DNA from: Planctomycetaceae bacterium | GTDB lineage: Bacteria > Planctomycetota > Planctomycetia > Planctomycetales > Planctomycetaceae | Length of the DNA: 64,000 nucleotides | NCBI GenBank assembly: GCA_019636285.1 | Contig: JAHBXV010000001.1 | Span: forward strand, 186,001 to 250,000 | Reading direction: 5' to 3' | Shown here: piece by piece, positions 8,894 to 53,433 of the stretch | Layout: every line of letters begins with the position of its first letter | How positions within the stretch are numbered: position 1 is the first letter of the stretch | The notes under the pieces: generated by a model | What the model saw: the letters and a program-made list of their open reading frames with translations, nothing else | What the model was told of the DNA's origin: nothing | Databases searched by the model: none | Program-made: the position numbers and the translations under genes

Positions 8894-9532
8894 TTACGGA
8901 GACTGCATGCGGCCCGAGCGAACCAATTCGAGAAACTGTTCACGAAGGTCCGAGACCGATTTCGACGGCCCGGTTAGCTTGCAGAAGTAGGCTGCATCGG
9001 GTTCGTCCAACGGAATGGCGACCCCAATCAATCGAGCCGACTCGATTTCTTCGTTTTGAAACGGATTGCGGAAGGTTCCGGTCAAATCGAGCAGGCGACA
9101 CTCCTTGCCAGCGACTTGCAGGGTTTCCTCTCGAGGCGCCGGATCGTTGGCACCACGGGTAAACTGCCCCTGCCAGCGCTCGAAGTTCGCGTCGACGCCT
9201 CCTCGGGCGGTCGACAAGGTCAGCCGGGCTTCACCGTCGCTTCCATCGATCCGCAGATCGGCCAGCAGAAACTGGGAATCGAGCGATCGCGACTGCCATT
9301 CCTTGGGAATGACGAACGACATCGGACCGAACGTCGTTTCACCAGCCTCCGACTCGGCATTACCGCGGGAAGACGTCTTCTCCTCGGCCGATTGAGAATT
9401 TTCGCTGGGTGCCAGCGGTGGTTCCGTCTTTGCCTGGTCCACCGAGGGGGCGCAACCCACCAGCGCCACGCCAAGCATCATGGCTTGAAGTGAGGCTCGG
9501 TTTCTCCAGAATCGTCGTGTCAACGTGGTCAT
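8894..9532 (-). CDS. Putative exported lipoprotein
   Basis: A 212-residue protein with a basic N-terminus, a hydrophobic stretch and a lipobox-like LVGC (Cys27), so it is probably a lipid-anchored envelope protein. A low-complexity Ser/Glu-rich linker (about 30-68) precedes a folded domain containing FGPMSFVIPKEW and RGGVDANFERWQGQF. The domain resembles secreted planctomycete proteins of unknown function; I do not assign a family. It lies 47 bases downstream of purK on the same strand and may share its transcript, although no functional tie to purine synthesis is evident. Confidence 0.75.
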   Translation of the reverse strand: MTTLTRRFWRNRASLQAMMLGVALVGCAPSVDQAKTEPPLAPSENSQSAEEKTSSRGNAESEAGETTFGPMSFVIPKEWQSRSLDSQFLLADLRIDGSDGEARLTLSTARGGVDANFERWQGQFTRGANDPAPREETLQVAGKECRLLDLTGTFRNPFQNEEIESARLIGVAIPLDEPDAAYFCKLTGPSKSVSDLREQFLELVRSGRMQSP

Positions 9533-36604: not shown

Positions 36605-38932
36605 GTGTCGTCCGCGCTACTCATTGTCGGCCTGATCCTGAGCCTGATTCCGCTCGGAATCTTTCTGTGGTTCTGTTTTCCCGTTTTCTGTCTTTACTGG
36701 TCGACCTACATCATTGGTCGGATCGTTTATCGACTGCGCATTGTCGGCGTGAACAATGTTCCGCGCACCGGGGGAGCCCTGTTGACCCCCAATCATGTGT
36801 CGTGGATCGACGGTCTGATTCTCCTCGTGACGGTTCCCCGCCGGATTCGCTTCATCATTTATGCGGACTACGTCAATCTCCCGAGCCTGAACTGGCTCGC
36901 ACGCGCGTTCAATGTCATCCCGATCAAAAGCACCGGTGGACCCAAGGCCCTGATGCAGTCGCTGCGCGATGCGAAGGCGGCCATCGAGGCCGGCGATGTC
37001 GTCTGCATCTTCGCCGAAGGGGCACTGACGCGCACCGGCCAATTACAAGCCTTTCAGCCCGGATTCCTCCGCATCGTCCAGGGAACGGGCGCGCCGGTCG
37101 TTCCGGTTTGCCTCAATGGATTGTGGGGGAGTATTTTCAGTTACGAAGGGGGGCGATTTTTCTGGAAATGGCCCCGTCGGCAACGCCGCACCATCACCAT
37201 TCACTTCGGCGAGCCAATCATCGAGCCCAAATCCCCGTCCGGCATTCGATTCGCCATTCAGAGCCTGGGAGCCAACATCGTGGATCAGCAGAAAGATCAG
37301 TCACTTATTCCCGCCCGGAAGTTCCTGCGCGCCTGCCGGCAGGCAAAGTCGCGCTGGAAAATTGCCGATTCCACCGGGCTCGAACTCAACGGGGGGAAAT
37401 TGCTGGCCGCGACCCTGGTGTTTCGGCGGCAGTTGTTGAAGGTCATCGCGGCGGACGAGAAGCACGTGGGCGTATTCCTGCCCCCCACGGTCGGGGGCGC
37501 GCTGGCTAACTTGGCGCTGACGTGTGCCGAACGCGTGGCCGTCAATTTGAACTACACGCTGTCCGATGACGATCTGCGCTACAGCGTAAAGTCGGCGGGG
37601 CTCAAGCACATTGTGACCAGCCGCAAAATGCTGGAAAAGCGCCCATGCGAACTGGGAGCCGAGTGGGTCTTCCTGGAAGATCTCAAGGAGCAGGTGACAA
37701 GCTTCGACAAGGTGATGGCCGCCATCGGGGCATATGTCCTGCCAATTGGGATGCTCGAGCGCCGGCTGGGGCTCTTGAACGTGAAGCCCGACGACCTGCT
37801 GACAATCATCTTCACATCTGGCTCAACGGGTGAGCCAAAGGGTGTGATGCTCTCGCAGTACAACATTTCCGCTACCGTCGACGCCGTGAGCGAAGTCATC
37901 CACATCAACCAGGATGACGTTGTTCTGGGCGTAGTCCCGCTCTTCCATTCGCTGGGATACACGGCCGCGTTGTGGCTCCCCATGTGCGTTCCCGCCTCGG
38001 TCGTGTACCACGTCAATCCGCTCGATGCGCGAGTGATTGGCGAACTGGCCGACAAGTACGGCGCGAGCATCCTGTTCTCCACGCCGACATTCTTGCGCAC
38101 ATACCTGAAGCGCTGCACTCCCGAGCAGTTCCGCCGGCTTGACCTCCCAATTGTCGGCGCGGAAAAACTTCCGCGCGACCTGGCCGAACAATTTCACGAA
38201 AAGTTCGGCCGCTACCCACTTGAGGGCTACGGCGCCACCGAAAACTCAGGCCCCGTGTCGGTCAACATTCCCGATCATCGCTGCGACAATGTCGTGCAGA
38301 CGGGCTCAAAACTAGGAACCGTCGGCCGCCCCCTGCCCGGCTGCTCGATTCGGGCCAAAAACCCGGACACGGGGGAGTGGCTCGACGCGAACCAGGAAGG
38401 GCTGATCCAGCTTCGCGGGCCAAACATCATGCTGGGTTATTGGCAGCAACCTGAAAAAACAAAAGCCGTTCTGACGGATGGCTGGTACAACACGGGCGAC
38501 ATGGGCTTCGTCGACGACGAGGGCTTCGTCCACATCACGGGTCGTTTGAGCCGCTTCTCCAAAATGGGCGGCGAAATGGTGCCGCACATTCGGATCGAGG
38601 AAGTTCTCGTCCGCATTCTCGAGGAACGCGGCGTCGAGGAAACCGAACCGATGGTTGCCGTGACAGCCGTCCCGGACCCCAAGAAAGGGGAGCGGCTGAT
38701 CGTTCTGCACCGAAGTCTGCCGATTTCCGTCGCGGAGCTTTTGCGATCGCTCGAGGCCACGGGAATTCCCAACTTGTGGCTGCCGGCAGCCGACTCGTTC
38801 TTTGAAGTGGAAAAGGTTCCGCTGCTCGGCAGCGGGAAACTTGATCTCAAATCCTTGCGAGAAAGGGCGTTGGAGTTCGTCGCCAACGAAAAGGGAGGCT
38901 CCCGCCTGGCACACCCGCAAGCCTCGGCGTGA
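36605..38932 (+). CDS. aas: Fused 1-acyl-glycerophosphate-type acyltransferase / acyl-ACP ligase
   Basis: A 775-residue two-domain protein like Aas, which re-acylates lysophospholipids using acyl-ACP made by its own ligase domain. The N-terminus has a membrane helix, then a PlsC-type acyltransferase with NHVSWIDG (HX4D: His64, Asp69) and FAEGALTRTGQL. From about residue 240 comes an AMP-forming ligase: TSGSTGEPKGVMLSQ, GYGATENSGPVS, GWYNTGDMG and the C-terminal lysine region LGSGKLDLKSL. Unlike E. coli Aas it seems to lack an MFS flippase domain. The GTG start follows GGGAGG. It likely acts at the inner membrane. Confidence 0.85.
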   Translation: MSSALLIVGLILSLIPLGIFLWFCFPVFCLYWSTYIIGRIVYRLRIVGVNNVPRTGGALLTPNHVSWIDGLILLVTVPRRIRFIIYADYVNLPSLNWLARAFNVIPIKSTGGPKALMQSLRDAKAAIEAGDVVCIFAEGALTRTGQLQAFQPGFLRIVQGTGAPVVPVCLNGLWGSIFSYEGGRFFWKWPRRQRRTITIHFGEPIIEPKSPSGIRFAIQSLGANIVDQQKDQSLIPARKFLRACRQAKSRWKIADSTGLELNGGKLLAATLVFRRQLLKVIAADEKHVGVFLPPTVGGALANLALTCAERVAVNLNYTLSDDDLRYSVKSAGLKHIVTSRKMLEKRPCELGAEWVFLEDLKEQVTSFDKVMAAIGAYVLPIGMLERRLGLLNVKPDDLLTIIFTSGSTGEPKGVMLSQYNISATVDAVSEVIHINQDDVVLGVVPLFHSLGYTAALWLPMCVPASVVYHVNPLDARVIGELADKYGASILFSTPTFLRTYLKRCTPEQFRRLDLPIVGAEKLPRDLAEQFHEKFGRYPLEGYGATENSGPVSVNIPDHRCDNVVQTGSKLGTVGRPLPGCSIRAKNPDTGEWLDANQEGLIQLRGPNIMLGYWQQPEKTKAVLTDGWYNTGDMGFVDDEGFVHITGRLSRFSKMGGEMVPHIRIEEVLVRILEERGVEETEPMVAVTAVPDPKKGERLIVLHRSLPISVAELLRSLEATGIPNLWLPAADSFFEVEKVPLLGSGKLDLKSLRERALEFVANEKGGSRLAHPQASA

Positions 38933-39065: not shown

Positions 39066-40462
<1,397 letters not shown>

Positions 40463-40512
40463 TGGGTTCGTTCCTTCGGTGGGTGCCCGTTCAACCTGTT
40501 CTGATCGTGCTG

Positions 40513-40881
40513 CTACTGCCGTCGTCCGAGTGCCATCGCTTGAAACTGCAAGTCCGAAACCTGGGTCGTCAACTCCTGTGATCCCACGTGGACGTCGCTA
40601 GTGAGTGAGTACCGTTCGCAGAACTGCCGCGTGCAATCGAGGATGTTGCTGGCAACCGATGGGTTTCGGTTCGCAGCGAATGACGCAAACTGGATGGCAC
40701 TGATTTTGGCGGTCAAGTTCTGCCCCATTGCGACACGGTGATTCTCAGGCTGGCCTGCGTTCTCCAGTAGCTCATTCAGCGACTGCCGCATCAGAGCAAC
40801 AAAGTCAGCCGATTGGCACATCCTGATCGATCGCTCTACGAAGCTGACGCACAGGACGGTATCCGGATCGTAACCGCTCAT
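40513..40881 (-). CDS. Element protein of unknown function
   Basis: A 122-residue soluble protein (ends LQFQAMALGRRQ) with helical patterning, for example SADFVALMRQSLNELLENAG and LTAKISAIQFASFAANRNPSVASNIL. No family is recognised. A purine-rich AGGGGG lies about ten bases before the ATG. It sits between the presumptive origin and the integrase, 50 bases upstream of int, so a role in recombination or replication control is possible from position only. Confidence 0.6.
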   Translation of the reverse strand: MSGYDPDTVLCVSFVERSIRMCQSADFVALMRQSLNELLENAGQPENHRVAMGQNLTAKISAIQFASFAANRNPSVASNILDCTRQFCERYSLTSDVHVGSQELTTQVSDLQFQAMALGRRQ

Positions 40882-41270
40882 CGTGCTATCCCCCTTGATG
40901 GTGAATCTGTCGTTGCCCCGTCAGCGTCCAGGTTCAGCCTGTCAGTCGTCAAGCCTCGGGCCGTTGCCATCCTGCCCGCCGCCGCCCCGTTCGCCCCCAT
41001 CCCAGCAGAGTGGTAGGCCAATCGCGTGGGTCGAGTCGTCCGCGAGCGAGAGACGCAGCAGGCGAGCACTGGCGAAGCGTGGCGGGGCAATGCTCATGGG
41101 GGCGGGACCGGCAGGGTAGGGGGGGGGTAAATCTCTGGGGGGTTTGGAGCCGCATACCGCATTCCCCGTGCGCGTGTGCCTTGTCAGGTTTTGAGCAAGG
41201 GGGGGGCAAGCGGATGTTCAGCGGTTCGCGGTGCATCGTACGATACAAACTCGGTGGCTCGCGAATGGGT
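40882..41270. other. Non-coding G-rich region with G-quadruplex motif
   Basis: Part of a 673-base gap upstream of the 122-residue ORF. ORFs here on both strands are low-complexity and not convincing. At 41098-41127 runs of G (5, 3, 3 and 9) are separated by loops of 1, 7 and 2 bases, a textbook intramolecular G-quadruplex motif; further runs of six and seven Gs follow near 41137 and 41197. Confidence 0.55.
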
Positions 41271-41271
41271 C

Positions 41272-41550
41272 GGTGTCACGGTGTCCAAGTGGTGTCGTAG
41301 CTCAACTGAATCACTGAGACACGCCTAACCTGTTGCTGTGAAATCTCTTCTGAATCGGTGTCATGGTGTCATAGTAGATAGTTGGTGAATATCTCATTCA
41401 GAATGCTCCCCGCCTATTCTATCGCTTACATGAGAAGTGCGGCCATTTAGCGTGACACCGTGACATTCGGCATAACCTGCTGGGGTGTATTGCGATAGGT
41501 GTGTCAAAGTGGCCTGAAACGTCGTGACACGTAGTTGGACACATTGACAC
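41272..41550. promoter_or_regulatory. Presumptive replication origin with inverted iterons
   Basis: Five GTGTC words on the left (41273, 41281, 41292, 41358, 41366) and four GACAC words on the right (41454, 41526, 41538, 41546) point in opposite senses around an 80-base segment (41371-41450) that is about 57% A+T, against roughly 40% around it. The fullest units are GGTGTCACGGTGTC on the left and GTGACACCGTGACA on the right. This lies immediately 3' of the primase-helicase gene, as origins of SaPI-type islands do relative to rep. Confidence 0.6.
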
Positions 41551-41554
41551 AGTT

Positions 41555-44401
41555 TCAAAATCCCCCTGGAACCTCAAAGCTGAGAATCCACTTCAGTCCC
41601 TCGTATTTGCTCACGCGATTGCTGCGAGAGCCAAGTTTCCGCTTATTGATGAGGGGCTTCCATCTCTTGTTGAGAGCCTTGCCGAGTGCTGTCTTGTCCG
41701 GCAGTTCATTGCGCTTATACCCATTTGCGATGTGCCATTTATGGCACACTTCCAAAGCCTCTTCGAGCCACACGAAGTCGTCGGCATGGCCGGTCGCCTC
41801 GAAATGGTCTTCCAGGAATTCGTCAAGTGGGTTCGTGTCTTTTCGGTACTCCGCTTTGGCGTCGACACTGGCAGCCGATTCGACGAATCCATTTGCCCGC
41901 AGATCAGCCAGCCCTTGAAGCGACCAGTTGAGCAGCGCGCTGCCTCGGCTTCCGTACCAGAAATCGACGGTGTCCATGCGTTTAATCTTGTCCGCGTCCT
42001 GAATCTTTACCGTCATTGGGAGCAGCAGCAGTCGCCGCCAGATGCCATCCGACTTGTCATCAATTGGGGGTCGGTTGTTGACGGAAAACGTGAGTCTCGC
42101 GGTGGGTGTGGCGTTGACCGGGTCTTTGTTTTTCCGATCGAACGTCATTGAATTGCCGCCGGTGAACTCTTTGAGTTTGGATTCTCTTGCTTTGCCCAGT
42201 TCGCCGAACTCAGACGCAATGTTCGCAAGTTTCCCCATCGTGACGTACAGGCCGAATCCTCTATCGAAGGCATCAATCCCGACGTGAGAGACGTTCTGTT
42301 CGCCCAAGACGGCTTCCAGGGCCGCACAGACGACCGACTTCCCGTTCCCGCCGTCGCCCTCCAGCATCAGGAACTTTTGTTGGCTCGTGTCATGAGTAAG
42401 ACAGTAGCCGAACCACTGCCGCAACATTCGTCGCTCGTCATCGTTCTTAAAGCTGGTCGCGAGGAAATGGTTCCACTCGGCAGACTGAGCGGTGGGATCG
42501 TACGCGAACGGCAGAGCGGAGACCGAAAACCAGTAGGGTGAATGGTCAACTAGACATGGTCTGCCAGCGAGATACTCGCGCACGTCGAGAATCCCGTTCC
42601 GCACGGACACAAAGTCGCGAGGGTCTCGGTTTTGTTTGGCTTGCGGCGACTCTTTTACCCAGCATGGGGGTTCGATTTCCTCATTAATGATCGTTCGTGC
42701 GTCGATCCGGGAAATGACGCTGTTCCGGAGAGGAATCGTCACCTTCAACGTCTTGGGTGGCGGTTTGTCCGGATCGGCATTTGCCAGAGCATCGACCGCG
42801 AGTCGATCAAACTCATTCTTCATGCAATTACCGACCAAACCGCCGAACTGGTCTTCCTTGATTTCAATGTAGCAACGGTCTTCGGGCGACCATTGCCACC
42901 ATTCCTTGCGCCAGCGGCGGAGTGTCAGAAGTCCATCGCGATACAGGAATTTTTGTTGGAGACAGTCGCGGGCAAGGCGGTCCGGGTCGTCATCTGCTTC
43001 CAGGGCGGTTTTTGGCGTATCCAAGAGCCTCTTGGGGGCCGTTTGGTGAACCACTCCGCTTTCCGCTGGGAACCGCTCATCCGCTATCGCGCCGGCTTCC
43101 CCCTCGGTCGAGACGCCTGACGGAACTTCGAACGGGACGTCGTCGCCCTCGGTCAGCGGCGGCAGGTCGTGGGAATTGAACGCTCCCGGTTCGATTCGGT
43201 CGTCATCATTTTCGCCGGAGCGACCGTCCTTTATCCCACCCCCGGTGGTTCGCTTCTCTCTTTTCAGCCGGTATCCGGGTTCTCCGGTCGCTTTTTTTTC
43301 GGCATCGTCCAGCTTGTGGTTAATCTCCGCATCACGCCACGGTGGTTTGCACGTCAGGTTCCATTCGTCGAACAACTTCCGGGCAATGTCCCTTGGAAGG
43401 TTGAAGCCCCGTATAAGCTCACAGGCGACCTTGTAGGCTGGGTCTGAGCCTCCCTTTCCTGACTCGGAGCCTGGAATTTTTGCGATGTACTTTCTCGCGC
43501 GGTCGATGATCCATTCGTCGACAGGTTGCTGGGCAGCCATGGCAGCGTCCGCCGGAGCCGTCGCCGCGAGGCGTTCGAGTCGTTCCCTCGGAACGATTTC
43601 CAGCGGGCTTTTCGGTTGCCCCATTCCCGCCATGCGATGGGGCCGTTCCGTCGTGCTGTCCCCCTTTCGGCTGTACGTTCCGTACAGCTTGCAGATGCGG
43701 GCCGGGTTGAACACCTTCTGGTCGACCGTGACATTGCCGGAATCATGCCTCACGGCGAGCGCCCGCAGACAGTTCTTGACAATGTCGCCATCCTTTGGTG
43801 GAAGATCGATGCGATAGAGCAAGTGGGAGCCGTTGCCCGAGTCAGCGAAAATCGGATCGGGCCACCCAGCGGCTGAGAGTTCGGCTTTGATCGCGGATGC
43901 CGTCGATCGGCTGTCTTGCTTCTCTTTCTCGGTCGATGAAATGCCAGATAGCCGCTTCGGGTCACAATCGATCAGCAACCATCGTCTTTTGATGACGTCC
44001 GGGTCCGATGCCGCTTCGCCTTGTTTCATGAAGCCGACGCGGTTCATCCGTCGCGCGAGAAGATCGGGGTTGAGCGGATTCAATGTGAAATAAACGGCTT
44101 CCGCATTCCCTTGGTCATCCCCTGTTCCCTTCTGGCTCAGTCTGTGAGCCTCTTTGGCCGCATCGTCGATATGGTCGAAGTCGAAGAACCCGCCGCGTTG
44201 ATGGGATCGTCTGTTGTCGCTTGTCCGACAGCCCAATGCGAGGATTTCAAACACGCTCCCCGGTTCAATCAGAACACGCAGGGCATCGGCGATTCTCGCG
44301 ACGTGGGGGTTATCAATCGGGACTGCCGATGTAGCTTCGTGCGGTTCTTCCGCCCGCTGACCGCGAGCCGCTTGTTTGACTGTCGTCTTGTCGAACGCCA
44401 T
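41555..44401 (-). CDS. Primase-helicase (D5/P4-type replication protein)
   Basis: A 948-residue replication protein. The N-terminal third looks like an archaeo-eukaryotic-type primase: RWLLIDCDPKR (DxD, about residue 144), FADSGNGSHLLYRIDL and KVFNPARICKLYGTYSRKG. A middle linker leads to a D5_N-like region (FVSVRNGILDV) and a superfamily 3 helicase with Walker A EGDGGNGKSVV near residue 684 and the late FSVNNRPPIDDKSDGIWRRL near 779. It would prime and unwind the excised element. It is the largest gene of the element, and its 3' end abuts the iteron cluster, its probable target. It lies 18 bases after the 152-residue ORF. Confidence 0.9.
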   Translation of the reverse strand: MAFDKTTVKQAARGQRAEEPHEATSAVPIDNPHVARIADALRVLIEPGSVFEILALGCRTSDNRRSHQRGGFFDFDHIDDAAKEAHRLSQKGTGDDQGNAEAVYFTLNPLNPDLLARRMNRVGFMKQGEAASDPDVIKRRWLLIDCDPKRLSGISSTEKEKQDSRSTASAIKAELSAAGWPDPIFADSGNGSHLLYRIDLPPKDGDIVKNCLRALAVRHDSGNVTVDQKVFNPARICKLYGTYSRKGDSTTERPHRMAGMGQPKSPLEIVPRERLERLAATAPADAAMAAQQPVDEWIIDRARKYIAKIPGSESGKGGSDPAYKVACELIRGFNLPRDIARKLFDEWNLTCKPPWRDAEINHKLDDAEKKATGEPGYRLKREKRTTGGGIKDGRSGENDDDRIEPGAFNSHDLPPLTEGDDVPFEVPSGVSTEGEAGAIADERFPAESGVVHQTAPKRLLDTPKTALEADDDPDRLARDCLQQKFLYRDGLLTLRRWRKEWWQWSPEDRCYIEIKEDQFGGLVGNCMKNEFDRLAVDALANADPDKPPPKTLKVTIPLRNSVISRIDARTIINEEIEPPCWVKESPQAKQNRDPRDFVSVRNGILDVREYLAGRPCLVDHSPYWFSVSALPFAYDPTAQSAEWNHFLATSFKNDDERRMLRQWFGYCLTHDTSQQKFLMLEGDGGNGKSVVCAALEAVLGEQNVSHVGIDAFDRGFGLYVTMGKLANIASEFGELGKARESKLKEFTGGNSMTFDRKNKDPVNATPTARLTFSVNNRPPIDDKSDGIWRRLLLLPMTVKIQDADKIKRMDTVDFWYGSRGSALLNWSLQGLADLRANGFVESAASVDAKAEYRKDTNPLDEFLEDHFEATGHADDFVWLEEALEVCHKWHIANGYKRNELPDKTALGKALNKRWKPLINKRKLGSRSNRVSKYEGLKWILSFEVPGGF

Positions 44402-44419: not shown

Positions 44420-44878
44420 TCAAAGAGCCGTCCATGGGTAGCTCGCGAGAAAACGTCTGATGGGGAATAGGGGTCGGGTAATCTTCGGTCGATTCGTGCG
44501 AGGGTTGAGAACGTGAAGGCAAGCCCGGTGGGACTGCCAGAAATCGCCAGGGATGGCATCGAGCCAGCACGGCAAGCGGTGAGCGAGTTCGATCAGGGTG
44601 TCGAGTTCCTCGAACTCATGGGACCATTCGCATTGGGGTTCGACGATCAGGGATTGACCGTACGTTCCCCAGCGGCGAAAGAGCCGGGAGCAACCGGGGA
44701 CACTCACGGCCTGTTCGACGGTCCAGGGCAACGTCAGCGGTTGTTGGTCGAGAGCGGCAACTTGAGTCAGCCGGTCATGCGGCAGAAGCAACGCGGCCAA
44801 CCGTTCCCGGAACCATGCCGGGACGGTGAACGGGGCGAACCTCGGGCCGTGGAGTTGCTCAAGCCGCGTTGCGATCAT
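44420..44878 (-). CDS. Element protein of unknown function
   Basis: A 152-residue protein with many Trp and Pro residues (PAWFRERLAALLLPHDRL, SHEFEELDTLIELAHRLPCWLDAIPGDFWQSHR). No family or metal site is recognised. Its ATG overlaps the stop of the excisionase-like gene by four bases and its stop is 18 bases before the primase gene, so it belongs to the replication operon. Confidence 0.65.
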   Translation of the reverse strand: MIATRLEQLHGPRFAPFTVPAWFRERLAALLLPHDRLTQVAALDQQPLTLPWTVEQAVSVPGCSRLFRRWGTYGQSLIVEPQCEWSHEFEELDTLIELAHRLPCWLDAIPGDFWQSHRACLHVLNPRTNRPKITRPLFPIRRFLASYPWTAL

Positions 44879-45150
44879 ACGGCAGTCCCCTCGGCAGTGG
44901 CGGGGGATGTCGCCGGGTTACGGATGACCTTGGAATCGACCCATGCCCGCAGGTCATCCGGTCGAAATAAAGCCCGGTTGCCAACTTTCACGACGGGCAA
45001 TTCGCCAGCCCGAACCGCGATTTCTAGACTCTTTTCGCAGAGTCCAACCAGTTGAGCCGCTCGGGCCTTGCTGATCGTAATCGCATCGTCCAGGCTGACC
45101 GGGACGGGCTTGCGCAGGGCGGGGGGCGTGTTCTGGAAACGCTTCGGCAT
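44875..45150 (-). CDS. Excisionase-like HTH DNA-binding protein
   Basis: A 91-residue protein with a MerR/excisionase-type winged HTH (HTH_17): ISKARAAQLVGLCEKSLEIAVRAGELPVVKVGNRALFRPDDLRAWVDS. Such proteins act as excisionases (recombination directionality factors) or AlpA-type activators of island excision. It is translationally coupled to the downstream ORF. It is one of two adjacent HTH_17 genes in the element. Confidence 0.82.
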   Translation of the reverse strand: MPKRFQNTPPALRKPVPVSLDDAITISKARAAQLVGLCEKSLEIAVRAGELPVVKVGNRALFRPDDLRAWVDSKVIRNPATSPATAEGTAV

Positions 45151-45245: not shown

Positions 45246-45458
45246 CTATCGAACGAACTGGTTGAGCCACTCGACCAACGCTTCTCTCGTCACGAACCAG
45301 CAACCGCCAACGCGAGCAACCTTGAGTTCGCCGCGCTTCTCAGCCCGACTTAGGCTGCGTGGTGAGCAACCGACCAACTTCGCGGCTTCGGCCTTTCGGT
45401 ACGCGAGCCGCTCAGCCAACGGAACTTCAGGGGCATTCTGCATTGCCATCGTGGTCAT
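45246..45458 (-). CDS. Second excisionase-like HTH DNA-binding protein
   Basis: A 70-residue protein consisting essentially of one HTH_17 domain: AYRKAEAAKLVGCSPRSLSRAEKRGELKVARVGGCWFVTREALVEWLNQF. It is related in layout to the neighbouring 91-residue protein but clearly diverged. AAGGA precedes the ATG. One of the two may be the excisionase and the other an AlpA-like regulator; sequence alone does not decide. Confidence 0.8.
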   Translation of the reverse strand: MTTMAMQNAPEVPLAERLAYRKAEAAKLVGCSPRSLSRAEKRGELKVARVGGCWFVTREALVEWLNQFVR

Positions 45459-48231: not shown

Positions 48232-49806
48232 ATGGCAATCGGCGATTTGGTCGTCAATCTGGTCGCGAGAACGAAGCAGTTCACCAACCCATTGGCTGCC
48301 GCGAGCAACAATCTGGCACGGTTCGCCGCGCGAGCCACCGCGTTGACCGGGGTCATCGGTGGGGCCTTGTCGGCGAAAGCAGCGGTCCAGGCTGCCGGGG
48401 TTCAGTTGCAGGCTGAACGAAAGCTGGCTGCCGTTCTCAACGCGACTGCCGGAGCCGCCGGGTTATCGGCAATGGAAATCGCTCGCTATGCCTCAGAACT
48501 TCAGTCCGTGACGAACTACGGGGACGAAGCCACCATCGCCGCCGCCGGTATTTTGGCCACATTCAAGAACCTCAAGGGAGACACGTTCAAAGAGGTGATT
48601 GCGTCGGCTCAAGACCTGTCCACGGTGATGGATCAGGATTTGAATTCATCGATCGTGCAGATCGGCAAAGCCATGAACGATCCGATTCAGGGGATGTCGA
48701 CCCTGTCTCGCGTAGGCGTCTCCTTCACGCAGCAGCAGCGCGACCAGATTCGGACTCTTCAGGAATCCGGCGACTTGCTGGGTGCCCAAGCCATCATCAT
48801 GGCCGAACTCAAGAGCGAATTTGGTGGGGCCGCGAAGGCGCTGGCCGATCCCTTCACGCAGATGAAAAACACCGTGGGCGATGCGTCCGAGTCGATCGGA
48901 ACGCTGCTCATTCCGACGTTGGAAGTCGCCGCACGCGGGGTCGACAACTTCTTCGTCAATCTCGCAAACGGCCGGGGCGGACTGGCTGAATTGGGGGTCG
49001 AGTTCGCGGCATTCTTCCAGAATATCGGCCTGTTCTTTGAGTACGCGGGAACGTCGGCAGCCGCGAGCTTTTACAAGATGGATGCCGATCTTGAACACAT
49101 TCTGCTTAACGCCATACCGGCGTACCTAACGTGGCTGAAAAACGAATGGTTTAACATCTTCACGGATATCACGAACTTCAAAACGGTCGTGATGATGAAC
49201 GCGGTCAAGAAAATGGCTTCCGCGTGGGACTGGCTGCTCTCTTACATTAAGGGAAATCCCATTAAGTGGGATGATAGCAGTCTCATGGACGGATTCGTCT
49301 CCAGCGTGAAAACGCTCCCGCAGCTTCCTGAGCGGGCGTTGACGGACATGGAGACTGAACTCAACTCGATGGTGTCCGAACTGAAGACGCGACTCGACGC
49401 GTCAATGGCTTCATCGCAGGCCGAACTTGGAAAGCGGTTCAACCCGACCGCGAACATGCCAGCGATTCCGGGCCTGGGCAAGTTGCAGGAAGACCTTTCC
49501 AGCCTGTCGGACATGGCGGAATCGTCGCAAGACTTCGCCGCCCCGTTCGTCGTGCCGGACAGTGAAGAGCGTTCGCCCCGCGAGAACGCCGGACCGAACT
49601 ACGCTGCCGCAATGACGCGAGGTAGCCAGGATGCAATTTCAACGATCAACCGGGGTATGTACGGCAGCGGGCCGGAGTCCCAAAAACAGCACAATTCGAA
49701 GATGGAAAAGCTGACGGCGGAAATGCTCAGCACGCTGAAGGGAATGCAGGGCCAGGGCGTGGACTATGACGACGGCGGGCAGGTCATCGACTTCGGCTAT
49801 GCGTAA
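48232..49806 (+). CDS. Phage tail tape measure-like protein
   Basis: A 524-residue protein with the core pattern of tail-length tape measure proteins: a hydrophobic GVIGGALSAKAAVQAAG near the N-terminus, ILATFKNLKG, IVQIGKAMNDPIQGMSTLSRVGVSF and LGAQAIIMAELKSEFGGAAKAL, then helical stretches, a hydrophobic middle and a low-complexity tail. In siphophages this protein sets tail length. Here it opens the late block upstream of the head genes, the reverse of usual order, with no tail-tube or chaperone genes. At 524 residues it would correspond to a short rod. ATG 48232 has AAGGGG about nine bases upstream. Confidence 0.82.
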   Translation: MAIGDLVVNLVARTKQFTNPLAAASNNLARFAARATALTGVIGGALSAKAAVQAAGVQLQAERKLAAVLNATAGAAGLSAMEIARYASELQSVTNYGDEATIAAAGILATFKNLKGDTFKEVIASAQDLSTVMDQDLNSSIVQIGKAMNDPIQGMSTLSRVGVSFTQQQRDQIRTLQESGDLLGAQAIIMAELKSEFGGAAKALADPFTQMKNTVGDASESIGTLLIPTLEVAARGVDNFFVNLANGRGGLAELGVEFAAFFQNIGLFFEYAGTSAAASFYKMDADLEHILLNAIPAYLTWLKNEWFNIFTDITNFKTVVMMNAVKKMASAWDWLLSYIKGNPIKWDDSSLMDGFVSSVKTLPQLPERALTDMETELNSMVSELKTRLDASMASSQAELGKRFNPTANMPAIPGLGKLQEDLSSLSDMAESSQDFAAPFVVPDSEERSPRENAGPNYAAAMTRGSQDAISTINRGMYGSGPESQKQHNSKMEKLTAEMLSTLKGMQGQGVDYDDGGQVIDFGYA

Positions 49807-49849
49807 GCGTACACCGGCAATTCCGTAACATCATTTGGAAGGCGACCCA

Positions 49850-50452
49850 ATGGATTTGGAAAAGCGTGTTATCTCCCGTCCGCTGGAACTGCGGAAGAAA
49901 GACGGCAAGACCTTCTTGGAAGGCTATTCCGCCGTTTTTTACAACGCTGCCCGGTCGGATGAGACTCAATTCGAGCTATGGGGCGGGACGTTCGAGCGGA
50001 TCATGCCGGGGGCTTTCGATGAGGCGTTGAAGCGGCCGGACGATGTCCGTTGCCTATTCAATCACGATGCCAGCAGCATCCTGGGCCGCTCCACTTCGGG
50101 AACGCTGACGCTGACCGTCGACGCCATCGGCCTGCGGTTCAGTTGCGAACTTTCTGACGACGAAGACGGACGCAGCATCGCCAGCAAGGTGGGCCGCGGC
50201 GACGTCTCGGGCTGTTCGTTCGGCTTCATCGCCGACAAGGTCGTTTGGCGCGAGGAAGGGGAACTGACCTATCGCGAGATTGAATCGGTTCGCCTGTACG
50301 ACGTCGGGCCGGTGACCTACCCGGCCTACAAGGGAACCGACGTCAGCTTGGCAAAGCGATCCCTCGGAGAACACCGGGCGGAACGTCGTCTGCCGAAGAC
50401 GCTGGCACAAGCGGAACTTCACGTCCGGTTGCAGCGAGCGTTGACGGCTTAG
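49850..50452 (+). CDS. HK97-family prohead protease
   Basis: A 200-residue serine protease that trims capsid protein N-termini during head maturation. Features are FEGYSAVFYN-like opening (LEGYSAVFYNAA), FERIMPGAFDEAL, catalytic His72 in CLFNHDASSILGR, and the catalytic serine in DVSGCSFGF (Ser123), then VGPVTYPAYKGT. ATG 49850 follows GGAAGG; a TTG 15 bases earlier is in frame. Its natural substrate, the capsid protein, is encoded two genes downstream. Confidence 0.92.
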   Translation: MDLEKRVISRPLELRKKDGKTFLEGYSAVFYNAARSDETQFELWGGTFERIMPGAFDEALKRPDDVRCLFNHDASSILGRSTSGTLTLTVDAIGLRFSCELSDDEDGRSIASKVGRGDVSGCSFGFIADKVVWREEGELTYREIESVRLYDVGPVTYPAYKGTDVSLAKRSLGEHRAERRLPKTLAQAELHVRLQRALTA

Positions 50453-50516
50453 GGAGAGAACGGCCGGTGAAGGTCATCGGCTATGGGTGGATGGTCGGCA
50501 CGGAAGGGGAGCTGCG

Positions 50517-50726
50517 ATGGCGACAAAAGAAGAGATACAGGAAATGGCTCGGCGGGCTGCGGAAGTTCGCTTGCGACTGAAGGAACTGGAGCATCGGCGG
50601 GCCTTGGAGCATCGGGAGTTCAGACCGGAAGAGCGCGAGGAAGTGGATCAACTGTTGGCCGAAGGGTGTTCACTTCGCAAACAGCGGCTGGCTGCCTTTC
50701 TGTTGGAGACGCAGGACGGTCAATAG
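50517..50726 (+). CDS. Small delta-domain-like (scaffold-like) protein
   Basis: A 69-residue, almost entirely helical charged protein (MATKEEIQEMARRAAEVRLRL, then RALEHREFRPEEREEVDQLLAE). It resembles the first ~50 residues of the major capsid protein encoded 60 bases downstream (there RVMENRDFTEPESQRAIQLVEE). It therefore looks like a stand-alone copy of the HK97 delta (scaffolding) domain. AAGGGGAG precedes the ATG. A scaffold or capsid-assembly modifier is the simplest reading, by inference. Confidence 0.65.
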   Translation: MATKEEIQEMARRAAEVRLRLKELEHRRALEHREFRPEEREEVDQLLAEGCSLRKQRLAAFLLETQDGQ

Positions 50727-50785
50727 GGGGCCACTTCAACAATTAGTAAGGGCCACGGGGCGACTCAATCAGGAAGGGAATCAAC

Positions 50786-52096
50786 ATGCCGCAAACCACG
50801 GCGGAACGACTGGCAGAGATCAAAACGGAACTGCGGCTGATGGAAGAGCGCCGCGTGATGGAAAACAGGGATTTCACGGAGCCGGAGAGCCAGCGGGCGA
50901 TCCAACTTGTCGAAGAACGGGAGCAATTGAGCATGACGCGAACCACCCCGCTGACTCCAGCGGAATTACGACACGCCCGCATCCAGGAATCCTTGCGGGA
51001 CTACGATCCGAACCACGTCCCATCGGACTACCCGGTTGGCGGGTTCGATCCCAAATGGGACAAGCGGTACAGCTTGCTCCGGGCTGTCTCCCGCAAGTTG
51101 GAGAAAGGGTACGTTGACGGCTACGAAGGGGAAGTGTCTGCGGAAATTGCCCGCCGCACGAAAAAGACCCCGAGCGGGTTCCTGATGCCGATGGGGCTGC
51201 CCATGGGTGGGGGAGAACGTCGCGACCTCGACACCACGGCCGGGGCCGGAGCCGTTCACACGAACTTCCTCGGCAGTCGGTTTATCGACGCGCTGCGGAA
51301 CAAGACGCTATTGCTCAGCATGGGGGCGACGTTGCTGACCGATCTGGTCGGCGACGTTCAGATTCCCAAGTTGACAACGACCAGTTCAGCCTATTGGGTC
51401 AACGAAGCCAGCCCCGTCACGGAATCCGCTCCCGCCGTGGGCAGCGTGACAATGGCACCGAAGACGGTCGGCACGTTCGTGGACATTACCCGCAAGCTGA
51501 TTATGCAGTCGTCCTATGACTGCGAAATGATGACCCGCAACGATCTGGTTCGCGTTCTGGGCCTTGAACTGGACCGCGTGGGCATCAATGGTTCGGGATC
51601 GGGAGCGGAGCCGCAAGGCATCCTTCAGAACTCGTCGATTCAGACGGTGGCCATCGGGACCAACGGCGGTGACCCGACGTGGGCGAAGATCGTCGAATTG
51701 GAATCCGTCGTCGCCACGGCCAACGCTGACGTTGGCAGCCTGGGCTACCTCACGTCCGCTTACGGACGGGGCAAGTTGAAGACCGTCACGAAGGGCGACG
51801 CGGGATACCCGATTCACCTTTGGTCGGAAAACAACACGGTCAACGGGTATCGGGCCGGGGCAACCGCTCAGGTTCCCAGCAACCTGACGAAAGGAACCGG
51901 CGAAGATTTGACAGCGGTCATTTTCGGCGACTGGTCGTCCATGGTCTTCGGAACATGGGGAGCGGTCGACATCAACATCGATCCGTACTCGCTCGGCACG
52001 TCCGGCGGGGTGCGAATCGTCGCGCTGCTCGACTGCCAGGTCAAATTCCGGCACGTCGAATCGTTCGCCAAGATCGTCGATATGAACCGGGCCTAG
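50786..52096 (+). CDS. HK97-type major capsid protein
   Basis: A 436-residue HK97 gp5-like capsid protein. An N-terminal charged coiled-coil delta domain (about 1-55) is followed by a linker and the capsid fold: SAYWVNEASPVTESAPAVGSVTM, KTVGTFVDITRKLIMQSS, the diagnostic GINGSGSGAEPQGIL and the C-terminal FGDWSSMVFGTWGAVDI. The delta domain is presumably cut off by the upstream protease. The gene is intact and well conserved at hallmark positions, indicating that a shell can be made. No portal gene, required for packaging through a vertex, is nearby. Confidence 0.93.
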   Translation: MPQTTAERLAEIKTELRLMEERRVMENRDFTEPESQRAIQLVEEREQLSMTRTTPLTPAELRHARIQESLRDYDPNHVPSDYPVGGFDPKWDKRYSLLRAVSRKLEKGYVDGYEGEVSAEIARRTKKTPSGFLMPMGLPMGGGERRDLDTTAGAGAVHTNFLGSRFIDALRNKTLLLSMGATLLTDLVGDVQIPKLTTTSSAYWVNEASPVTESAPAVGSVTMAPKTVGTFVDITRKLIMQSSYDCEMMTRNDLVRVLGLELDRVGINGSGSGAEPQGILQNSSIQTVAIGTNGGDPTWAKIVELESVVATANADVGSLGYLTSAYGRGKLKTVTKGDAGYPIHLWSENNTVNGYRAGATAQVPSNLTKGTGEDLTAVIFGDWSSMVFGTWGAVDINIDPYSLGTSGGVRIVALLDCQVKFRHVESFAKIVDMNRA

Positions 52097-52113
52097 TCAC
52101 GGTTCGTGATGAC

Positions 52114-52153
52114 GGCGGGGGCTTTGGATCGTCTACACCCTTGTCCCCCCGCC
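52114..52153 (+). terminator. Hairpin after the capsid gene
   Basis: GGCGGGGG (52114-52121) pairs perfectly with CCCCCGCC (52146-52153). It lies 18 bases after the capsid stop; no U-run follows, so it may partially terminate or stabilise the capsid mRNA. Confidence 0.4.
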
Positions 52154-52258
52154 ATGCCAGCCCGGTCGGCTGTTGGGTTTGTCAGCGTTTCCCCAGCAGT
52201 CGGCCGGGTTGGTTTTTCTAACCTCACTCACTCCCCATCGGACGAAGGATCGCAACCC

Positions 52259-52684
52259 ATGGCATCGCTCGTGGAACACGGTGGCGACGGACAGCAACTC
52301 GACTTGGGTCGGGACAGTTGGCTGTCAAACGAAGCCCAGCGTTGGTTGGCCGAAGCAATGAACGAACCGAAGATCGGTCGCCAGCGAGTGCTGACGATGA
52401 TCCTGCACAACGGTTTGGGAATCCCGCTGTCGATGATCGCGGAGCTTTTGGGCGAGACGAAGAACGTCATCGCGAAGAACGTCATCAGCGGCAAGAAGCG
52501 GATGAAGAAAGTTCGCTACCCGCAACGCGAAGTCGCAGTCGATGCCGGGGACGAAAACACCCACTCGGGTGGACCGGCGGATGTCTGCCCCTGTTGCGGC
52601 CGGCCGGTCGTGATTCATCAGCAGCACGGCGACGAGCCGCCATTGGGCCGCTTCATCGAACGCCGCACGGCCATCCCGGCGTAG
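52259..52684 (+). CDS. Element HTH / zinc-knuckle protein
   Basis: A 141-residue protein with a helical region holding a probable HTH (LGIPLSMIAELLGETKNVIAKNVISGKKRMKKV) and, near the C-terminus, VCPCCGRPVVIHQQH, a likely zinc site. It is the last late gene of the element. The ATG at 52259 has AAGGA upstream; the frame is open from 52106. The DNA-binding character and position next to capsid make a packaging-recognition or late regulatory role conceivable, but no family supports it. Confidence 0.6.
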   Translation: MASLVEHGGDGQQLDLGRDSWLSNEAQRWLAEAMNEPKIGRQRVLTMILHNGLGIPLSMIAELLGETKNVIAKNVISGKKRMKKVRYPQREVAVDAGDENTHSGGPADVCPCCGRPVVIHQQHGDEPPLGRFIERRTAIPA

Positions 52685-52950: not shown

Positions 52951-52971
52951 GTTCAAATCCCCTACCCTCCA
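52951..52971. repeat. attR core (21-bp direct repeat)
   Basis: Identical to 39118-39138. On its right the host sequence continues with the original tRNA-Ala downstream region (terminator at 52987-53012). Only the T-arm/acceptor 3' part of a tRNA is present here, so it is not a second tRNA gene. Confidence 0.93.
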
Positions 52972-53433
52972 CTCGATTTTCACTCAAACCCCTTGGTAAC
53001 AAGGGGTTTTTTCGTTTCTGGGGCATCTTTCGGGGGCTTTCGCCCCGATTTTCCGACGGCGCATGCCGGATGCGGTGATCTCCCCGGGGCGTCGTCTCTC
53101 TCGCAGCCGAAATCTTGCCGGCGGACGGTTGTTCGCGACTTGCCATCACGTCATGGCAGGTCGACGCTTTTTCCGCCGCTTGGCCCCGCGAGTCGGAAGA
53201 GGAACGCTCTACTGCTCCCCCTCCGCTGACGCCCCGTTCTGGCATCACTTCCCAGTCAAAACTGGACATCCTGGTACGTTGCGTTCCTGCAACATTCCAC
53301 AACCCACTGAGGAAAAAGACGTTACGCGTGAAGTGTCAGTTTCCTGAAAAAAAACTGAACGCCACTCACTTATTCATGAAATAAGTTTCACCTAATGAAT
53401 CCGTAAATCTGTCGATCGCTCCGTGAGAGGGAA
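52972..53433. other. Chromosomal gap right of attR
   Basis: A 462-base spacer with the two terminator hairpins at its left end and an AT-rich segment (about 53335-53410), probably the promoter of the signalling operon. ORFs crossing it are not protein-like apart from the stranded integrase tail. Confidence 0.4.
52987..53012 (+). terminator. Original tRNA-Ala terminator, displaced by integration
   Basis: AACCCCTTG (52987-52995) with CAAGGGGTT (53000-53008) and TTTTTT. It nearly matches the hairpin next to attL. A second hairpin, TCGGGG/CCCCGA with TTTT, follows at 53030-53052. Confidence 0.8.

Follow-up and report, generated by a model that had tools for sequence, protein, structure and literature searches.

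What is the function of the repeat array that lies beside the primase-helicase gene of a mobile island in this planctomycete genome? The original prediction had taken the repeats for the replication origin of the element, by likeness to the SaPI-type islands. The position and layout of the array and the protein encoded next to it bore out the SaPI-type reading, and these data, together with a spacing template from a Streptococcus satellite and a SaPI5-like model of the helicase, support the array as the predicted origin. As judged from the sequence and the structural model, the array is almost certainly the replication origin of the island, of the PICI/SaPI kind.

The stretch of DNA analysed, hereafter the window, is 64 kb long and contains an island of 13.8 kb integrated at tRNA-Ala, in an assembly of 6.37 Mb. 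When a single chromosomal gene (36605-38932) was compared, the nearest named relatives were Planctomycetaceae assemblies with 52-53% identity, which makes a planctomycete host likely. The island is bounded by the tRNA-Ala gene and a 61-base direct repeat, and the following features were located around the array (coordinates are those of the window):

39066-39138, plus strand: tRNA-Ala (GGC), the integration target
39077-40462, minus strand: tyrosine integrase of the island
39118-39178, no strand assigned: left attachment repeat
41555-44401, minus strand: primase-helicase, 948 aa, matching TIGR01613 (phage/plasmid primase, P4 family)
41558-41830, minus strand: C-terminal domain of the primase-helicase, about residues 858-948, predicted to bind iterons (AlphaFold2 model)
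44875-45150 and 45246-45458, minus strand: two small excisionase/AlpA-like HTH proteins (TIGR01764, below cut-off)
52951-53011, no strand assigned: right attachment repeat, 77% identical overall, with the first 21 bases identical

Further products of the island are an HNH protein and, at 48232-52684, a tape-measure-like protein, an S78 prohead protease and an HK97-type major capsid protein. The hallmarks of a PICI detected in the island were an integrase, a specific att site, an excisionase-like protein and a primase/Rep. Among the island ORFs scanned, there was no clear candidate for a divergent master repressor (Rpr/Stl), and neither a terminase large subunit (TerL) nor a portal was recognised. 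PICIs have no capsid genes of their own, and the island departs from the typical PICI in carrying a capsid gene and a protease. Of the full set of terminase, portal, protease and capsid that marks a capsid-forming PICI, the protease and the capsid were recognised among the ORFs scanned. In other genomes, TerL and portal were found alongside two relatives of the capsid gene (L121 and L125), and a portal alongside two others that were checked for the portal only (L120 and L123). The 3' end of the integrase gene overlaps the tRNA-Ala gene and the left attachment repeat, so the protein would have one C-terminus when the island is integrated and another once it is excised, with a length of 461 or about 438 aa depending on the position of the crossover. 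A role of the array as arm sites for this integrase was rejected, as some 2.1 kb separate it from the attachment repeat.

The array itself comprises two arms that flank a core:

41273-41296, plus strand: left arm, outer triplet (GTGTC at 41273, 41281 and 41292)
41318-41322, minus strand: left arm, inverted single iteron (GACAC on the plus strand)
41358-41370, plus strand: left arm, inner doublet (GTGTC at 41358 and 41366, 8 bases apart)
41371-41453, no strand assigned: core of 83 bases, about 56% AT, the presumed melting region
41454-41466, minus strand: right arm, inner doublet (GACAC at 41454, GACAT at 41462)
41501-41505, plus strand: right arm, inverted single iteron (GTGTC, mirror of 41318)
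41526-41550, minus strand: right arm, outer triplet (GACAC at 41526, 41538 and 41546)

The exact GTGTC and GACAC words listed above were obtained by a word search of 41273-41550, and the twelfth site, GACAT at 41462, is one base off GACAC. GTGTC words had been described on the left of the core and GACAC words on the right; the clustering stood, whereas the pure split did not, as a GACAC (41318) is present in the left arm and a GTGTC (41501) in the right. These two sites are mirror images of each other and part of the layout, in which each arm consists of an outer triplet of direct iterons, a single inverted iteron and an inner doublet, with offsets in the window of 0, 8, 19, 45 (inverted), 85 and 93. 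The twelve sites form six mirrored pairs about a centre near 41412, each pair within 1 base, an arrangement that was reached by 0 of 20,000 random placements. When the gaps and orientations of the right arm were permuted, the mirror symmetry was supported with p = 0.0025.

With 11 exact words per 279 bases, the array is the densest stretch of that length in the window for GTGTC/GACAC, the runner-up holding 5. The clustering was confirmed against shuffled sequence, as none of 5,000 shuffles of the array stretch itself reached 11 words (mean 1.65, maximum 8); random sequence of the composition of the window contained a mean of 0.58 and a maximum of 4. The core between the inner doublets was 55-56% AT compared to 40% in the surroundings, and it had originally been described as 80 bases long and about 57% AT; the top AT-rich 80-base segment near the array (61%) starts at 41325. 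The array ends at 41550, 4 bases 3' of the primase-helicase gene, whose stop codon is at 41555-41557. As the ORF spans 41555-44401 on the minus strand, the array is located directly 3' of it, just where it had been placed. Single-strand folding of the array was stronger than that of shuffled versions (z -2.4), although this is expected from inverted iterons and was not counted as evidence. No RNA families were found within 40400-41800. Three runs of G (9, 6 and 8 bases) are present at 41119-41206, in non-coding sequence between the array and the next gene.

The primase-helicase matched TIGR01613 (NCBIfam) with 177 bits, above the curated cut-off of 108.7, and also DUF5906, with D5_N below its cut-off. 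For residues 470-948, the helicase and C-terminal half of the protein, an AlphaFold2 model built from 37 sequences had a mean pLDDT of 92.8, and its top match among solved structures was the SaPI5 primase-helicase 7ola (Z 31.3, rmsd 4.0, 383 residues), with other D5-like viral primase-helicases ranking behind it. A phmmer comparison with 7ola gave E 7.8e-11, and profile comparison gave 99.7% for P4 alpha and 99.8% for the Javan634 primase. On the phmmer and structural matches, the predicted initiator belongs to the D5/SF3-type helicases and is a relative of SaPI Rep. By analogy with SaPI Rep and with Cch2 (PMC7581432), its C-terminal domain is predicted to bind the iterons. Two more ORFs of the same genome (L002 and L003, on contigs C77 and C102) match residues 298-385 of the primase only, with 34-38% identity.

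The layout was searched for with a template lacking any site word, made up of twelve offsets taken from the Streptococcus satellite Javan634 alone and slid along the 64 kb. Its top position in the window was 41412, where 11 of the 12 slots were filled by the common word GTGTC; outside the array, and leaving aside overlapping registers of it, the score never exceeded 5 in the 64 kb. Directly 3' of the primase, at least 8 of the 12 slots were filled in 9 of 60 planctomycete loci (the window, L035, L045, L046, L050, L056, L065, L068 and L078) and in 22 of 79 IMG/VR loci, frequencies that are not a census since the template was run on homologues picked by helicase similarity. The respective background blocks, 1,048 in total and searched with equal effort, gave 0/574 and 0/474. 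Twenty-eight arrays scored at least 9, of which 19 had no extended DNA similarity to one another, and the core was richer in AT than its locus in 17 of these 19 distinct arrays. The usual arm across arrays had three outer, one inverted and two inner sites; in L046 and L050 the arms had 2, 1 and 3 sites, again six. All 12 slots were filled 3' of a D5-type primase in the IMG/VR loci L165, L170, L176, L183, L184, L191 and L198, with the words TGTCC, GTCCG, TCCGG, CCGGG or GGACC. No such array was seen in five phages that are not satellites but have homologous primases (phiC31, TG1, phiBT1, DrManhattan and Bas82). The inverted single iterons, the six sites per arm and the occurrence of the layout beyond satellites are refinements on the original prediction.

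The conservation of repeats beside homologous primases was followed independently of any template. A primase homologue was found in 134 of the 398 genomes sampled in the class of the host at a threshold of E 1e-20 or better, with no close relatives of the primase among them, and single-protein searches of genome and viral contig collections with the primase likewise returned no relatives. Loci were obtained by fetching 60 planctomycete loci, to which the window was added, and by an alignment search of viral contigs, in which a helicase-half profile yielded the independent IMG/VR set (80 loci). When tiles at 500-base offsets were scored for the densest repeated 6-mer, the top tile lay just beyond the 3' end of the primase gene in 25 of 58 planctomycete loci (43%), against 0-10% (mostly 2-4%) at the other offsets, and in 42 of 77 IMG/VR loci (55%), against 0-8% elsewhere. 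A lack of the repeats in close relatives with the primase would have spoken against the original prediction; no close relative was found, and these distant homologues carry the 3' cluster at the frequencies given. As more than half of the planctomycete homologues had no detectable 3' cluster, the arrangement is not universal for the primase family.

The iteron words differed from element to element. Overall, similarity of the C-terminal domains did not predict similarity of the words (p = 0.11), so co-evolution of word and domain is not shown by these data; the near-identical pairs L046/L050 and L075/L076 have words in common. When loci were tested one by one for mirror symmetry, using iteron motifs that had been derived automatically, only 10 of 26 reached significance, the fixed spacing template being more sensitive. 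Dense iteron clusters were also seen away from the 3' site, about +2140 after the matched ORF in L058 (AGGTTCGG, 12 copies), about 3600 before the primase stop in L067 (AGGTCGGC, 8 copies) and at the gene 3' end in L042 and L044 (CCGTGGA, 8-9 copies); these are perhaps origins placed elsewhere.

The reading that we favour, with a probability of about 0.93, is that the array is the origin of the island and that the D5/P4-family primase-helicase would bind its twelve iterons by means of the C-terminal domain, probably in the form of two hexamers, each of which would occupy a six-site arm if each iteron takes one subunit. Indeed, the presence of six sites per arm suggests one helicase hexamer per arm. 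The hexamers, opposed across the AT-rich core, would melt it and unwind outward, so that replication would be bidirectional, and DNA would be made by the N-terminal primase of the protein together with host polymerases. The origin would become active after excision of the island.

There is a small chance that the array is instead a cis-acting replication control site or enhancer, of the P4 crr or incompatibility-locus type, to which the primase-helicase binds, with synthesis starting at another place in the island. The region 3' of alpha in P4 is crr, which is required in cis, and the annotated origin with its six-site arm is about 4.5 kb away. However, the window has the two arms and the AT core at one site, as in PICI origins, the layout of P4 crr is unlike the window arm, and no second array above 5 was detected: a split origin of the P4 type was sought in the 64-kb window with the Javan634 and P4-arm templates, and neither revealed one. 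Even less probable is a cluster of operators that serves a regulator of the island and has no part in replication. Arrays of iteron-like sites can act as operators, and small HTH proteins are among the island products, but no promoter-like site was found in 40800-41700, the array follows the 3' end of a gene, and the same 12-slot spacing recurs in unrelated elements, in arrays on the 3' side of homologous primases. Finally, a chance cluster or a decayed, functionless remnant is scarcely credible, for although the island may be incomplete and in part decaying, given that no terminase or portal was found among the ORFs scanned, 0/5,000 shuffles reproduced the density and 0/20,000 placements the mirrored pairs, 11 of the 12 sites are intact, and the primase has kept an open reading frame.

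Beyond the assignment of the array as the island origin, a general proposal, to which we give even odds, is that origins of the D5/P4 family follow an ancient blueprint independent of the word, with two mirrored arms of six iterons and one hexamer on each, P4 ori1 being a single arm. According to the computed layout, an arm is made of three direct, one inverted and two direct iterons, and the arms are about 80-110 bases apart. The analysis provides an origin prediction at the base-pair level for a planctomycete mobile element, and the spacing template finds such origins without knowledge of the binding word, and it links three systems so far treated apart, namely the PICI origins, P4 ori1 and the origins that phages have 3' of primase genes. 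Should a six-site arm be what one hexamer covers, the way in which a self-loading helicase assembles at an origin as an opposed pair could be put to the test.

In PICI origins, an AT-rich region is flanked by two sets of iterons, and the rep-ori of EcCICFT073 supports plasmid maintenance (PMC6092414). As in the window, PICI/SaPI origins are located directly 3' of the primase/Rep gene, with two inverted iteron sets around the AT-rich core. The iteron word is different in PICI/SaPI and in the Javan satellites, the host of the window is a planctomycete, and the island additionally has a capsid gene and a prohead protease compared to PICI/SaPI. In the Streptococcus satellite phages Javan634, Javan98 and Javan364, the iterons appear in the order of the window, 3' of the primase. 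The arm offsets of Javan634 (0, 9, 20, 41 inverted, 86 and 94) are close to those of the window, although its annotated primase ORF has 494 aa, whereas primase and helicase are fused in the window.

A parallel to a single arm is found in P4, where alpha is a homologous primase-helicase with crr directly 3' of it according to the record. The same record places six type-1 repeats in the replication origin, at 9310, 9320, 9331, 9353 (inverted), 9396 and 9406, and the resulting ori1 offsets of 0, 10, 21, 43 inverted, 86 and 96 match one arm of the window. In P4, the cis sites are split over about 4.5 kb, whereas the window has two mirrored arms together 3' of the primase. The best match of a one-arm P4 template in the window was the array (left arm 5/6, right arm 4/6), and 6/6 was reached in L068, L078, Javan634 and Javan611.

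Among phages, the record of Streptococcus thermophilus phage Sfi21 places a replication origin immediately 3' of the primase, and in Sfi19 inner doublets flank a core as in the window, although the Javan634 template matched only partially (6/12). In SCCmec, Cch2 is a D5-type helicase whose C-terminal domain binds repeats downstream of its own gene (PMC7581432); unlike the window, its putative origin has three direct iterons only, and the polymerase/primase is separate. The array is thus identified with high confidence as a replication origin of a known kind, and what is new is the twelve-site blueprint, free of any fixed word, that recurs in satellites of Streptococcus, in elements of planctomycetes and in uncultured viruses, and of which P4 ori1 matches one arm.
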